Below, one piece after another: positions 215-32,129 of a stretch of 64,000 nucleotides of DNA; position 1 is the first letter of the stretch, and every line of letters begins with the position of its first letter. The translations under genes and the position numbers were made by a program. The DNA comes from an uncultured Clostridia bacterium (lineage in GTDB: Bacteria; Bacillota; Clostridia; UBA1381): positions 186,001 to 250,000 of the forward strand of contig CANRJY010000001.1 of the NCBI GenBank assembly GCA_947631085.1. The letters are read 5' to 3'. The notes under the pieces are model-generated. The model saw only the letters and a program-made list of their open reading frames with translations, was not told the DNA's origin and did no database searches.

Positions 215-525
215 AGAAACAAAACTTAATAAAAATCCCTGAGATTTCGCGTATTTAGGTCTTTTTTTTACCAACACATCTTATAAGGGATGCCGGCTCC
301 GGCTGCGGCGTATACGCCTCCGTTTCTTCGGAAATGCCAGTGGACATATAATGCACTCGGGCGGCGACCCACCTGCAATAGCAGGTAGAAACTCGACCTG
401 TTATAACGGTTATCTTGGGGTTTTGTTTTGCAAAAAGCGGTCAAGCCCGTACATAACCGTTATTTTATGATATTCCACTTACAAAAGAGCGTATCAGTGA
501 AAATGATACGCTCTTTTGTTGTTTG
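215..525 (+). ncRNA. Structured non-coding RNA (6S- or raiA-class candidate)
   Basis: This 440-base gap holds no convincing ORF. It has a promoter (TTGTAA at 180-185, 17-base spacer, TATTAT at 203-208 with extended TGG), GC-rich stem-forming stretches between 285 and 420, and a long closing pair (ATAACGGTTAT near 403-413 with ATAACCGTTAT near 453-463). It ends in a perfect 16-bp hairpin with a T-rich tail. A separate transcript of roughly 250-310 nt, dense in GC hairpins, fits an abundant housekeeping RNA. I considered 6S RNA (ssrS) and the raiA-motif RNA and cannot decide between them by eye. The TSS near 215 and the 3' end are inferred. Confidence 0.55.
481..519 (+). terminator. Intrinsic terminator after the structured RNA
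   Basis: A perfect 16-bp stem (481-496 with 504-519) around a 7-nt loop is followed by a T-rich GTTGTTTGTTT tract. It closes the RNA transcript and also separates it from the convergent gene that ends at 561. Confidence 0.85.
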
Positions 526-560: not shown

Positions 561-2978
561 TCAATCCGGATAATATATATAATTGGGCTGCGCATAGATT
601 ATAACATCCAATTCGCTTAATTTCCTTATCGCGTCAATTACCCTTTTGCGGCTGCCGTTATTAAGCGTCAGAAGACATGTCCTGTATTTTCGCCCATTGT
701 CATACTGCGGGTTTCCGCTGCTGAACAAGAAACGGCATTCGCGCAAATTAAGCTCCGGCAGCGTTTTATTGAAATAATCGAGGTAATAGCCGCAAAAATC
801 CTCCGTAACAGAATCGTCGTCATATATACCGACAATTATTTCGTCCGTTTCAAATTCGTCTCCCTCGTATGGGTCATCGTATGTAAATATCCGATTTTCG
901 GCGAGCGGTGTCATTGTGCCGAGAGCGTCCCATACGAACGCTTTTATACTTGCTATCGGCGTATCGGACTTTTGAATATTCACGCCGCAGGAAAAACTCG
1001 TGCCTGTCGGTAAATCGGCTTTTATGTAATTCATGCTCGCAAGCGCGTTGTTTTCGTCATATGCCGCGACGATAAAATGATCCTGCCCGCTGCGTTCTGC
1101 AATTTTTGTAACGTCCATATCCACTATAAAGCTCGTACTGATCGGGATTTCGTCGTATTCCTCACCGCTTGCTGAAACGAGCCTTAATGAATTTATCGTG
1201 TACGGATATGTTTTTGGATTTACCTCCGTAAGCTGTACGACATTGTTTTCGCCGTTCACAATTATGTAATTGTAGTTGTCGCTGTGGAAATACTCACTGT
1301 AATCTTCGCCGTTTGCGCCCGTCACGCTTATCGGGTTGCCTATTGTCGGCACAGCCTCGGTGCTTACGCAGATATACGAGCCTTCCCAAATCGGCTCGGC
1401 TATCGTAACGGTTCGCCCTTCCCTCAGTTCGAGATTGCAGCTTTTTCCGTCCGCATTCATATTAGCGCCTATAGTCATTCTGCCGCCGATTTTAAATTCG
1501 CTTGACACGCGTACGGCGCTGTCACATCTGTTTGCGGATATAATGCAGTTGCGCAGCTCCACCGGAGATATGGCGTTAAGCGCGTGTGAGCCGTTATTGC
1601 CGGCAAGCATACAGTTTTCCAAAAGGACGTTTCCTCTGCTGTACAGAAAGATCCCGTTGCCGTCGTCGCCGACCGCGTTTATGTTATACATTTCAAACAT
1701 ATTGTCCGACGCGATAAGCATACTGCCTATTATCGTTCCGCCCTCAATCGGTATGTCGCCGTTTTCCTCGTCGAGCGTCCATAACCCGTCCTCGCGGGCG
1801 CTGAAGTTGTGGACGGTATCGGTACAATCGGTAAGTCCGCAGTTGTCACAGGCGGGCGTCGCGGTCAACGCTACGGTGCCTGTGCCGATGTTTTGTATAA
1901 TATGACCGTTCAGACAAATATACACTCCGTCAATAATATTCAGACTGGTTGACGTTACAATGTCATTCGTGAGATAATAATATCCCGCCTCTTCCGGCAG
2001 CGCGTCCGAGCTGTCCCACGCCGTCCACGTTTTGACCTCGTGGTTGTCGGTACAGTCCGCATCGGCGCATATTCTATGTATATGCGGCATGTCGTCATAT
2101 TCAAGCAAAAACTCCCTATTCGCCAAATAGTAATGCACCTTCAGCACCGCGCAATGCGCGGTCGGCTTATAAACGTCGGTTCCCCCGCTCGGTACGCTCG
2201 GCACAAGCTTTATCGTAACCGGACTTTCCTCGTCAATATAATAATAAGCCGATTCGATCTCATGCGCACGCTGCGTAGTAGGTTCAACCCACTGAATAAA
2301 CAGCAGATAGCCGGTCGAAGTGTTTTCGAAAAAAGCTTTACAGCCGGAAATGATTTGATCCAAATCATCACCTGTATATCGTTCCTTTAGTTCTTCTATG
2401 GAATTACATTTTACAATATACGGCTCGCTTTGAGGATTTAGCGTGTTTTCGTCTATATCAAGTCCGCCCGTATAATATTTAGTTGTTTTATAATTCTCTG
2501 ACTCGAGCAGCCTTGACATATCCGACAGCGCATGCACGGATATTTCCTTTCCAAGCTGAGAGTTATCCGCTTCAAGCAATATTGTTTGGGATCGCCAGTC
2601 TGCCGGATACCATGTGTAATCGCCGAACATTTCAAGGTCAATATCAAAAGTGCTTTCACCCTCTTTGACGGAAAGAACTCTGTACCGCCATGCGCCGCTG
2701 CCGGACACGTCCAAAAATATAAGAAACTTATCCTTAAAAAATTCATCATTGTATTTTTCCGGCTCTGTCATATCCGAGGGCAGCGCATCGACGGATTGGA
2801 CGACTGTAACAGTTTCTTCCAAATCCGTTTCCGAGCACGGGTCATATTCGACATTATACTTTACTTCCGCCGCGTTCGGCTCGTCGTAGGTGTACGCTCC
2901 CGCGCTCATCGGCGCGATATATACCGCGCAGATTAGCATTACTGCCGCCGTAATCAAACTAACCAACCTTTTTTTCAT
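561..2978 (-). CDS. Large secreted protein with beta-helix-like middle and I9-like C-terminal domain
   Basis: This is an 805-residue exported protein of unknown function. I chose the ATG at 2978 because an AAGGGA site precedes it and it opens directly into a signal peptide (MKKRLVSL, hydrophobic core, AGA cleavage region). A longer frame reaches 3089 but would run through the leader RNA. The middle (about residues 350-490) has short repeating hydrophobic/Asn-Gly rungs typical of a right-handed beta-helix. Two Cys/His/Asp-rich stretches may bind metal. The last ~95 residues, ending AQPNYIYYPD, resemble the inhibitor-I9/propeptide-like domain that ends many clostridial secreted proteins. Expression is probably controlled by the structured leader at 3012-3156. 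No catalytic motif is recognisable. Confidence 0.75.
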   Translation of the reverse strand: MKKRLVSLITAAVMLICAVYIAPMSAGAYTYDEPNAAEVKYNVEYDPCSETDLEETVTVVQSVDALPSDMTEPEKYNDEFFKDKFLIFLDVSGSGAWRYRVLSVKEGESTFDIDLEMFGDYTWYPADWRSQTILLEADNSQLGKEISVHALSDMSRLLESENYKTTKYYTGGLDIDENTLNPQSEPYIVKCNSIEELKERYTGDDLDQIISGCKAFFENTSTGYLLFIQWVEPTTQRAHEIESAYYYIDEESPVTIKLVPSVPSGGTDVYKPTAHCAVLKVHYYLANREFLLEYDDMPHIHRICADADCTDNHEVKTWTAWDSSDALPEEAGYYYLTNDIVTSTSLNIIDGVYICLNGHIIQNIGTGTVALTATPACDNCGLTDCTDTVHNFSAREDGLWTLDEENGDIPIEGGTIIGSMLIASDNMFEMYNINAVGDDGNGIFLYSRGNVLLENCMLAGNNGSHALNAISPVELRNCIISANRCDSAVRVSSEFKIGGRMTIGANMNADGKSCNLELREGRTVTIAEPIWEGSYICVSTEAVPTIGNPISVTGANGEDYSEYFHSDNYNYIIVNGENNVVQLTEVNPKTYPYTINSLRLVSASGEEYDEIPISTSFIVDMDVTKIAERSGQDHFIVAAYDENNALASMNYIKADLPTGTSFSCGVNIQKSDTPIASIKAFVWDALGTMTPLAENRIFTYDDPYEGDEFETDEIIVGIYDDDSVTEDFCGYYLDYFNKTLPELNLRECRFLFSSGNPQYDNGRKYRTCLLTLNNGSRKRVIDAIRKLSELDVIIYAQPNYIYYPD

Positions 2979-3011: not shown

Positions 3012-3156
3012 AAAAAGTGCGCCGCATAAATTCTCAGCGGCGCACCCAAAAACGCCACTTTGATTTAATGCTGCGACACACTTTATCATACAAACACTTC
3101 ATATAGGTATGAAAACCAAAGCGTGCGCTTTTTACTAGCGCAAGCCTATATGAAGT
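3012..3156 (-). promoter_or_regulatory. Riboswitch-like leader RNA, copy A, with antiterminator/terminator
   Basis: Reading the minus strand, P1 is a perfect 12-bp helix (3156-3145 with 3107-3096). Inside it is P2 (TGCGCT 3142-3137 with AGCGCA 3129-3124, loop AGTAAAA), then CTTTG at 3121-3117. Downstream is P3 (AGTG 3082-3079 with CATT 3070-3067, loop TGTCGCAG), then CAAAG at 3062-3058, able to form a pseudoknot with CTTTG. AGTGGCG (3059-3053) can pair with CGCCGCT (3042-3036). That pairing excludes the terminator GTGCGCCGC/GCGGCGCAC (3045-3037 with 3025-3017), which is followed by TTTTTA. The same architecture recurs at 30248-30412. It sits 34 nt before the start codon of the secreted protein. 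Confidence 0.75.
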
Positions 3157-3180
3157 ATTAAGTAGTATGCCGCATTCATA

Positions 3181-30184: not shown

Positions 30185-30213
30185 TTTACAAATTTCCCGA
30201 AAAGTGTTATAAT
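30185..30213 (+). promoter_or_regulatory. Promoter of the SLH gene and its leader
   Basis: -35 TTTACA (30185-30190), 17-base spacer, -10 TATAAT (30208-30213). It predicts a 5' leader of about 240 nt. Confidence 0.85.
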
Positions 30214-30247
30214 GTAAAATGTCACATATTTACTTAAATTTTAATAT

Positions 30248-30412
30248 TTTACCGATAACGGCTTACGCTATGAAAAAAGCGTAGGTTACTTTGACTATAT
30301 TCCGTTATTGGTAAATTTATATTTTTTGAGGGTAAATGTGTGACAACATTTAATGTCAAAGACCGCGTTTTTTTAATGCGTGGCTTTGCGTTAAGTGAGG
30401 TCACGCCTTTTT
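30248..30412 (+). promoter_or_regulatory. Riboswitch-like leader RNA, copy B, with antiterminator/terminator
   Basis: P1 is a 14-bp helix (30248-30261 with 30302-30315, one G-U). Inside is P2 (TACGCT 30264-30269 with AGCGTA 30278-30283, loop ATGAAAAA), then CTTTG at 30289-30293. P3 follows (AAATG 30334-30338 with CATTT 30347-30351, loop TGTGACAA), then CAAAG at 30357-30361, able to pair with the CTTTG. CAAAGACCGCG (30357-30367) can instead pair with CGTGGCTTTG (30379-30388). That helix overlaps the left arm of a terminator-like hairpin (GCGTG 30378-30382 with CACGC 30402-30406) followed by TTTTT. All parts match copy A at 3012-3156, with a compensatory G-C to A-U change in P2. Confidence 0.75.
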
Positions 30413-30463: not shown

Positions 30464-31600
30464 ATGAAAAGAATCAAAAAAATCTTATCGCTCGCAATAG
30501 CGGCGATAACGGCAGCGGCGGCAATAACAGCGCAAGCCGCACAGTTCACCGACCTCGGTCCCGACCATTGGGCGTATAACAGCGTTACAAAAATGGCGGA
30601 GCGCGGTGTTTTCTCCGGCTATGAGGACGGCACGTTCCGTCCCGAGCAATCAATTACACACGAAGAGTTCATAAAGACGATCGTTGAATACGTCGCTCCG
30701 GGCAGCGTTACGCCGAAGGACGCGGATTACCGGCAGGTTATAACGAACGATCCGTCAAATCCGCAGTATTGGACAAATCACTGGGAAGCATGGGCACAGC
30801 CCTACCTTGACAAGGCACTTGAGCTCGGTCTTATCGGCGACGGCAGCGACGCAAGCAATAAGAAAATCGCGACACTTCTCGACGACTACGATGAAATCAT
30901 AAACGGCACGACTGTTGAGCCGTGGCACGGTGAATTCCTCAATACCGAAAACGGCGTAACAGGCAAATTCACCTATGATTTTATCCCCGTATCGCTTGAA
31001 ATCGACCTCGATGATACCGACAATATTGCGCCCAATACGCCTATCACGCGTGAAGAGGCGGCAAGACTTGTCACAAGAGCATTGTATCTGACGCACGATA
31101 ATGATCATTTGTATGAAAGCGTTAATAATACGTCTTTCAAATATGAATTTCCTTATACATTGAGTTATAAGTATGCAAGTACGGCAATTTGCTATAAATG
31201 GCCTGAAAGCTGGGTTAATTTTCATGGATATAGCTACAGTGATAACCTACCTTTAGCCGGTGTAATCTGCAATATAGACATTGACACCGGTTTAACAGAA
31301 GGTAACGGCGTATGGGGTGTTACACCCAATTACAGACGTGATGTACTTGTCGCTCTGTTAAACGGCATTATCGGCACAGATGAAAACGGTATGTATAATC
31401 CTCAGCAGTCTTTGACAAGAGCCGAGGCGGCGGCTATTGCGCTCAGACTTTCAGATAAAAATGAAAGATTTGTAAATGATGATAATAATTCTTACTATTT
31501 GCGGCACGCAGTCAACTCGGCTTATGAAAGTTCGCAGAATAAATACTATATACAAATATCTAATCGCATATACGAACAAAACCTCTACACAAATTATTAA
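30464..31600 (+). CDS. SLH-domain surface protein
   Basis: This 378-residue exported protein starts at ATG 30464 (GGAAGG site), which opens a signal peptide (MKRIKKILSLAIAAITAAAAITAQA). At least two S-layer homology domains are visible: one right after the signal (FTDLGPDHWAYNSVTKMAERGVFSGYEDGTFRPEQSITHEEF, in parts) and another in the last third (LLNGIIGTDENGMYNPQQSLTRAEAAAIALRL, in parts), with a degenerate third between (PNTPITREEAARLVTRAL). SLH domains bind secondary wall polymers, so it should sit on the cell wall. There is no clear non-SLH cargo domain. The last ~180 codons are noticeably more AT-rich than the first half. Confidence 0.88.
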   Translation: MKRIKKILSLAIAAITAAAAITAQAAQFTDLGPDHWAYNSVTKMAERGVFSGYEDGTFRPEQSITHEEFIKTIVEYVAPGSVTPKDADYRQVITNDPSNPQYWTNHWEAWAQPYLDKALELGLIGDGSDASNKKIATLLDDYDEIINGTTVEPWHGEFLNTENGVTGKFTYDFIPVSLEIDLDDTDNIAPNTPITREEAARLVTRALYLTHDNDHLYESVNNTSFKYEFPYTLSYKYASTAICYKWPESWVNFHGYSYSDNLPLAGVICNIDIDTGLTEGNGVWGVTPNYRRDVLVALLNGIIGTDENGMYNPQQSLTRAEAAAIALRLSDKNERFVNDDNNSYYLRHAVNSAYESSQNKYYIQISNRIYEQNLYTNY

Positions 31601-31778: not shown

Positions 31779-32129
31779 TGGTGGAGCTGACGAGAATCGA
31801 ACTCGTGTCCGAAAACAAATCCGCCTGAGTTTCTCCGAGCGCAGGTTACGATTTATATTCCCTTCGCTAAATCTCCGTAACCGAAGCTATAGCGTCGGTA
31901 GTCCCTTGTTCATGGCGCGGGGCGGAACAATCCCGCACTCACGTTCACCGCTGGTATGCGCCTCAGTCCGCGCCGCGGTACTCGCGGAGGAGACGAAAGC
32001 TGCTTAGGCAGCTAAAGCTAAATCGTAATCGTTAGCGTTTATTTTTAAAGTGAGCCTTTTTAACGCGGCTGACCCGTCCGCGGCTCGCTTCTCAGGTTTC
32101 CCTGTCCCCGTCGAAGCCATTGCAGCCCC
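31779..32129 (-). tRNA. ssrA: tmRNA (transfer-messenger RNA)
   Basis: A 351-nt RNA on the minus strand. The 5' end starts GGGGCTGCAATGGCTTCGAC. The 3' end has the tRNA-like T arm with TTCGATTC and the encoded CCA (GCTCCACCA). The tag reading frame, near 32037-32008, encodes ANDYDLALAA followed by TAA; ending in ALAA makes it a ClpXP degradation signal. smpB lies next in the same direction (upstream on the minus strand), and clpX/clpP are elsewhere in the window. Confidence 0.97.

Follow-up and report, generated by a model that had tools for sequence, protein, structure and literature searches.

The window considered here, a 64,000-nucleotide stretch of a contig from an uncultured Clostridia bacterium, carries two copies of a structured leader RNA whose class, by comparative sequence analysis, is real, well supported and riboswitch-like in its anatomy, one on the minus strand (copy A, 3174-3007) and one on the plus strand (copy B, 30220-30412). 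We estimate a probability of about 0.68 that the two belong to an orphan riboswitch class, with a predicted ligand, that acts by transcription attenuation ahead of many genes for secreted and surface proteins. Two attributes of riboswitches were found in them, namely a conserved, structured 5'-leader domain backed by covariation and an expression platform, in the form of a terminator and an antiterminator, that overlaps this domain. The central claim of the original prediction, a riboswitch- or attenuator-like class in which a pseudoknot competes with an antiterminator, is supported as far as sequence comparison goes, and the same evidence supports the predicted helices, pseudoknot, promoter position, terminator and antiterminator.

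The fold shared by the family begins at the 5' end of the RNA with an outer helix, P1, which encloses a long helix P2, an A-rich hairpin P3 and a CUUUG segment; a 3' tail with CAAAG closes a pseudoknot, which joins the strand 3' of P3 to the tail that follows P1. In copy A, whose elements were verified base by base, the entire aptamer-like domain (3058-3175, minus strand) is matched by our first covariance model, R1. P1 is formed by 3174-3164 and 3082-3072, both strands being backed by pairing and covariation, and pairs at 11/11 positions, as against 14/14 in copy B. P2 corresponds to the perfect 12-bp helix that had been proposed as the outermost stem, and all 12 pairs are indeed formed between 3156-3145 (pairing and covariation) and 3107-3096 (base-by-base pairing). 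The A-rich hairpin predicted within it is P3 (3143-3123), in which six of the seven pairs of 3143-3137/3129-3123 are formed, again with covariation. The proposed interaction of CTTTG (from 3121) with CAAAG (to 3058) extends to nine of nine pairs, including one G-U, between the strands CTTTGGTTT (3121-3113) and AAATCAAAG (3066-3058). The antiterminator hairpin (3059-3036) pairs at 7/7 positions between 3059-3053 and 3042-3036 (-12.5 kcal/mol) and overlaps both the pseudoknot strand (at 3059-3058) and the terminator (at 3042-3037). The latter (3045-3012), with its 9-bp hairpin (3045-3037/3025-3017; -18.1 kcal/mol) followed by TTTTT (3016-3012), lies where it had been placed. The one element that fell away is a small third stem with loop TGTCGCAG, which is not part of the conserved fold: 3082-3072, which had been drawn as belonging to it, is the 3' strand of the outer helix, whose 5' strand lies beyond the originally delimited element, so that the latter was too short at its 5' side. 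Upstream lie a -10-like box TAATAT (3186-3181), 5 nt ahead of the start of the model match at 3175, and, 17 nt ahead of that box, a -35-like box TTTACA (3209-3204), recognized from the sequence and in a family-wide promoter scan. The gene that follows on the minus strand (2978-561) codes for an 805-aa protein with a signal-peptide-like N-terminus, for which Pfam returned only a sub-threshold beta-helix match.

The recurrence of the element on the plus strand, which had been placed at 30248-30412, holds in that copy B contains the same set of elements; its outer helix, though, begins upstream, at 30220. Here R1 matches the whole aptamer-like domain at 30219-30361. P1 (30220-30233/30332-30345) was established by base-by-base pairing, P2 (30248-30261/30302-30315) pairs at 14/14 positions, and the P3 hairpin with its A-rich loop (30262-30285) at 8/8. 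The pseudoknot joins CTTTGAC (30289-30295) to GTCAAAG (30355-30361) through seven of seven pairs. The first 5 nt of the antiterminator hairpin (30357-30388; 5 + 6 pairs; -12.3 kcal/mol for 30355-30388) belong to the pseudoknot strand, and the intrinsic terminator (30378-30412) comprises a hairpin with 12/12 pairs (30378-30406; -16.9 kcal/mol) and a T-tract (30408-30412). A -35-like box TTTACA (30185-30190) and a -10 box TATAAT (30208-30213) are separated by a 17-nt spacer, with the -10 box lying 5 nt ahead of the model match. Downstream is a gene (30464-31600, plus strand) for a 378-aa protein that has SLH domains (PF00395, E 5.6e-30) and an N-terminus resembling a signal peptide. Just past this gene the Rfam scan detects a tmRNA (31779-32129, minus strand, 168 bits), and elsewhere in the window a 6S RNA (233-425, plus strand, 65 bits).

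Several lines of comparative evidence uphold this fold. The folds of copies A and B are far more stable than those of shuffled sequences (z = -6.2 and -7.9, respectively), with none of 200 shuffles being as good in either case. Across 80 copies (77 distinct), changes on both sides are seen at 41 of the 43 pairs, including all 14 of P1, while 92.8% of the cells remain paired; the covariation score is 0.596, compared with 0.207 for shuffled and 0.077-0.111 for slid alignments. Forty further copies outside model building (22 rows belonging to other families within the class, and 18, of unstated family, taken from named records), each at most 0.86 similar to any copy used for the models, give much the same picture, with compensatory changes at 35/43 pairs, 91.8% paired cells and a score of 0.593. 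Both alignments were fitted to the nested helices without fitting to the pseudoknot, the strands of which pair with their own partners over 7.2 bp on average as against 6.36 bp when swapped between copies (sd 0.10, maximum 6.63); the swapped control is already high because the strands are conserved, and part of this signal is therefore sequence conservation. In one locus (L047) the pseudoknot is wholly rewired and still pairs over 8 bp, and in 13/80 copies its longest uninterrupted run is at most 5 bp. Among the unpaired positions, three in a loop are invariantly AAA in 40/40 copies and others are strongly conserved, as expected for a binding pocket. Strong copies also produced antisense matches, because the helices are palindromic; these (6/101 rows) were excluded from the alignment designated A6 by the E-value cut.

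Scans against Rfam 15 (4227 families, with the gathering score of each family as the cut-off), which the original prediction had called for, found no family reaching that score at either copy; permissive scans of both gave sub-threshold matches only (best E 0.046), and on eleven related loci only one tRNA was matched. With copy B as query, blastn gave matches in 13/61 genomes, several of them being further copies in its own genome. Since automatic alignments of A with B alone misplaced P2, R1 was built from five of these other matches, keeping A and B as tests, and it recovered them at 70.4 and 79.3 bits, respectively. At E <=0.1, R1 finds the element in 40/70 genomes and 15/17 genera of the family. 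With a second model, R2, for which 80 matches (A and B among them) were used, the element is found at E 0.01 in 66/90 genomes and 21/26 genera of the order, and at E 0.001 in at least 70/392 genomes and at least 40/220 genera of the class, where 8 candidates per genome were scored; the E-values of these models are rough by the tool's own statement. In a phylum-wide draw, which includes members of the class, 2/398 genomes match: the genome of the window and one other of the same class. The former alone has 15 matches below 1e-5. The expectation of further copies is borne out: many more were found, with covarying helices and pseudoknot and with conserved terminators and antiterminators. A strict motif search of the same genome gave four matches, none at A or B, because its pattern fitted neither. 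Named records yielded 31 loci by a DNA pattern, 30 of which were confirmed by the model, all titled as metagenome-assembled genomes (MAGs) of Clostridia, Bacillota, Eubacteriales, Oscillospiraceae or Monoglobus, many of them with goat, sheep, deer or buffalo gut sites, or 'Lapin', in the title. The remaining locus (L148, Rhodospirillaceae) fails the model and was taken as a chance match. A plasmid or phage origin was rejected: one copy, that of L031, had no blastn match among plasmids and phages, and a pattern scan of viral contigs gave four contigs, on which the model makes two weak matches (29.8 and 22.7 bits), neither of them at the pattern. The L183 stretch, seen in the same check, is A+T-rich with a repeated motif.

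In the expression platform, the tail is followed by a U-rich stretch and then by a strong hairpin with a U-tract, and terminators stand behind 110 of 115 copies (71/76 and 39/39 in two sets), as against 1.2% in shuffles that preserve letter content only; the other five have no recognisable terminator. The tail and the bases following it can pair with the 5' half of the terminator over 7.08 bp in their own context compared with 5.97 bp when swapped (sd 0.16), and in 71/79 cases the longest such antiterminator run extends into the final five bases of the pseudoknot strand. Loss of bases to the pseudoknot weakens the antiterminator of copy A from -12.5 to -8.5 kcal/mol and that of copy B from -12.3 to -7.7 kcal/mol; set beside the stability of the respective terminators, this implies that the pseudoknot should favour termination. 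As the overlap of pseudoknot and antiterminator in copy A amounts to just two bases, their mutual exclusion would be partial there. When the platforms are folded by themselves, that of A favours the terminator (-22.0 kcal/mol) and that of B an extended antiterminator (-25.1 kcal/mol), pointing to a default state that differs between the two. Throughout the family the loop of the antiterminator hairpin contains a recurring T run, about 5 nt 3' of the pseudoknot strand; the polymerase might pause there, leaving the domain time to fold. Two copies that stand ahead of SLH-type genes but have no terminator lie on contig C2 of the same genome (L051:4001-4127, minus strand; L054:401-527, plus strand); in these the first T-tract runs straight into the sequence normally found 3' of the terminator, and they may be constitutively open.

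Sigma-70-like promoters with at least 10 of the 12 consensus bases precede 86/116 copies, as against 0.7% in shuffles preserving letter content alone; at a threshold of at least 9 of 12 they precede 102 copies (10% in shuffles), with the -10 box lying 4 or 5 nt before the domain in 99 of these 102. This spacing places the predicted 5' end of the RNA at, or inside, the first few bases of P1. On the other side, an open reading frame (ORF) with a Shine-Dalgarno (SD)-like site starts within 330 nt of 63/77 and 33/39 distinct copies in the two sets, with median gaps of 84 and 74 nt. One locus (L072) displays three tandem units (1666-1776, 1896-2010 and 2129-2263, plus strand), each with promoter-like boxes, domain and terminator, preceding a very short ORF; a single contig region, covered by L050 and L156, contains two complete copies plus a third one that is truncated where the contig ends.

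One conserved domain precedes many unrelated genes. For the Pfam analysis 81 ORFs were chosen automatically, ten doubtful or short ones were dropped, and the remaining 71 were scanned, those over 700 aa being cut to that length and many being cut at locus ends. This recovered 26 proteins with BspA-type leucine-rich repeats (LRR), 11 with SLH domains, 6 with copper-amine-oxidase N-terminal domains and 3 each with CHAP and HTH_3 domains; SLOG-family, LytTR and MazE/AbrB-like proteins are among the exceptions to the surface-protein theme. Judged simply by hydrophobicity, 48/63 and 22/33 downstream ORFs have signal-peptide or membrane-like N-termini, as against 6/41 ORFs of the window, the latter being a rough mechanical set from both strands that may include spurious ORFs. 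For 18/116 distinct copies no downstream ORF was found by our rule, and 2 more lie too close to the end of a contig. The nature of the regulated genes suggests that the signal reports on the envelope or the surroundings and that the ligand may be a second messenger.

Taken together, these features suggest the following mechanism. With transcription predicted to start at the foot of P1, the domain would fold while emerging from the polymerase as the first 110-140 nt of the mRNA: P2 with its A-rich P3 hairpin would form first, P1 would then close, and the 3' tail (AAAUCAAAG in copy A) would finally pair with CUUUGGUUU in the internal loop between P2 and P3 as the pseudoknot. The last bases of this tail are also the 5' end of the predicted antiterminator, which would otherwise sequester the 5' half of the strong terminator. 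We infer that a small ligand binds and stabilises the pseudoknotted domain, whereby the antiterminator would be weakened, the terminator would form and the gene would be switched off; without the ligand the antiterminator would form and RNA polymerase would read through.

The effector could also be a protein or another RNA. That a regulatory protein binds the domain of P1, P3 and pseudoknot in place of a small molecule would equally explain why one conserved domain stands before many surface genes, and HTH_3 regulators do make up 3/71 downstream proteins; yet protein-bound leaders usually need less than a three-helix pseudoknotted domain of this size with invariant loop bases, so that we consider such a protein-controlled attenuator improbable. 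Far less probable is that the units act chiefly in trans as small RNAs with promoter, structured body and terminator, the control of genes in cis being secondary: the copies do possess their own promoter and terminator, to the point of standing three in a row in the L072 locus, but the conserved overlap of antiterminator with terminator and the ORF with its SD-like site close on the 3' side constitute a cis layout. If the effector is a small molecule, cyclic di-GMP has to be weighed, with the family as a further class beside c-di-GMP-I and -II. Surface-protein regulons are typical of c-di-GMP control, and the set of genes found here fits it; moreover, the genome of the window has 7 GGDEF hits, and across 67 genomes the counts of the motif and of GGDEF domains correlate weakly (Spearman 0.29, p 0.018; presence/absence p 0.068). 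Against this, 14/52 motif-bearing genomes of the family, and 6/30 further ones of the class (30 chosen from 53, mainly for completeness), are without a GGDEF hit, the latter six including G107 (97% complete, 5 copies), G314 (96%, 8) and G331 (94%, 8). Furthermore, a canonical c-di-GMP-I riboswitch coexists with the motif in the genome of the window (contig C14:33784-33882, minus strand), one copy beside 15. As 3/15 genomes with c-di-GMP-I (one of the 15, G018, below the family cut-off) also have no GGDEF hit, such absence is no proof; c-di-GMP is accordingly disfavoured as the ligand, and a further c-di-GMP class appears slightly less probable still than control by a protein. A c-di-GMP-I riboswitch with no GGDEF hit is seen in G030, G080 and G093, for which an incomplete genome, or another ligand or cyclase, may account.

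It is also possible, if unlikely, though less so than any of the foregoing alternatives, that the family is the published ligand-less riboswitch candidate termed the SLH motif, absent from or unrecognised by Rfam (Stav et al., 2019; PMC6429828). That motif, with 80 unique examples in Clostridia, Negativicutes and Synergistaceae, is described as lying upstream of S-layer-homology genes and of genes of unknown function, and SLH domains are found here in the product of the gene after copy B and among the scanned downstream proteins. Nevertheless, SLH-domain genes are reported to follow about 60% of its examples (PMC6429828), as opposed to 11/71 in the present set, whose taxonomic make-up differs and in which BspA-type LRR proteins are the largest group (26/71); the two matches in the phylum-wide draw of 398 genomes both belong to the class; further, the whole word 'pseudoknot' does not occur in the main text of that report (PMC6429828). 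The two share Clostridia among their hosts and the status of ligand-less candidate, and they may be set apart by genes and taxa. For the ligand of the SLH motif c-di-GMP was proposed as a guess (Stav et al., 2019; PMC6429828). In the titles and abstracts searched, and in portions of the texts of PMC8632094, PMC11109978, PMC10043782 and PMC8040213, nothing is nearer to the present family than the SLH motif, which is near by its genes only. Relative to Rfam 15 and this literature, then, the class is apparently new, although it could be the same as the SLH motif.

Returning to the riboswitch reading, we tentatively propose, with less assurance than attaches to that reading itself, that the class is an undescribed one which, with up to about 15 copies per genome, responds to a signal other than c-di-GMP and acts globally as an OFF switch for a large part of the proteins that are secreted or carried on the surface (BspA-type LRR and SLH proteins and related ones) by gut Clostridia such as Monoglobus and its relatives. 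If these RNAs are riboswitches, they form an abundant class whose ligand would govern many surface proteins of gut bacteria that are poorly cultured, and the identity of that ligand would show how such bacteria choose what to display on their surface. The analysis also provides a covariance model, many test sequences and a clear two-state prediction open to testing in vitro.

Among known systems, c-di-GMP-I riboswitches (RF01051) are likewise leader RNAs present in the same genomes, with multi-copy control of surface genes in Clostridia, but the Rfam scans gave no match to them at either copy. T-box leaders also operate through competition between antiterminator and terminator, and the antiterminator of copy B contains a stretch, ACCGCG, reminiscent of them; they differ in having no Rfam match at A or B, and the families downstream of the present RNAs are not aminoacylation genes. 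A mechanical likeness also exists to pseudoknotted attenuating riboswitches such as those for fluoride and ZTP, in which the 3' strand of the pseudoknot is, as here, also part of the expression platform. These, too, have no Rfam 15 match at A or B, and in the RNAs described here, in contrast, this 3' strand follows an outer helix that starts at the predicted transcription start itself.
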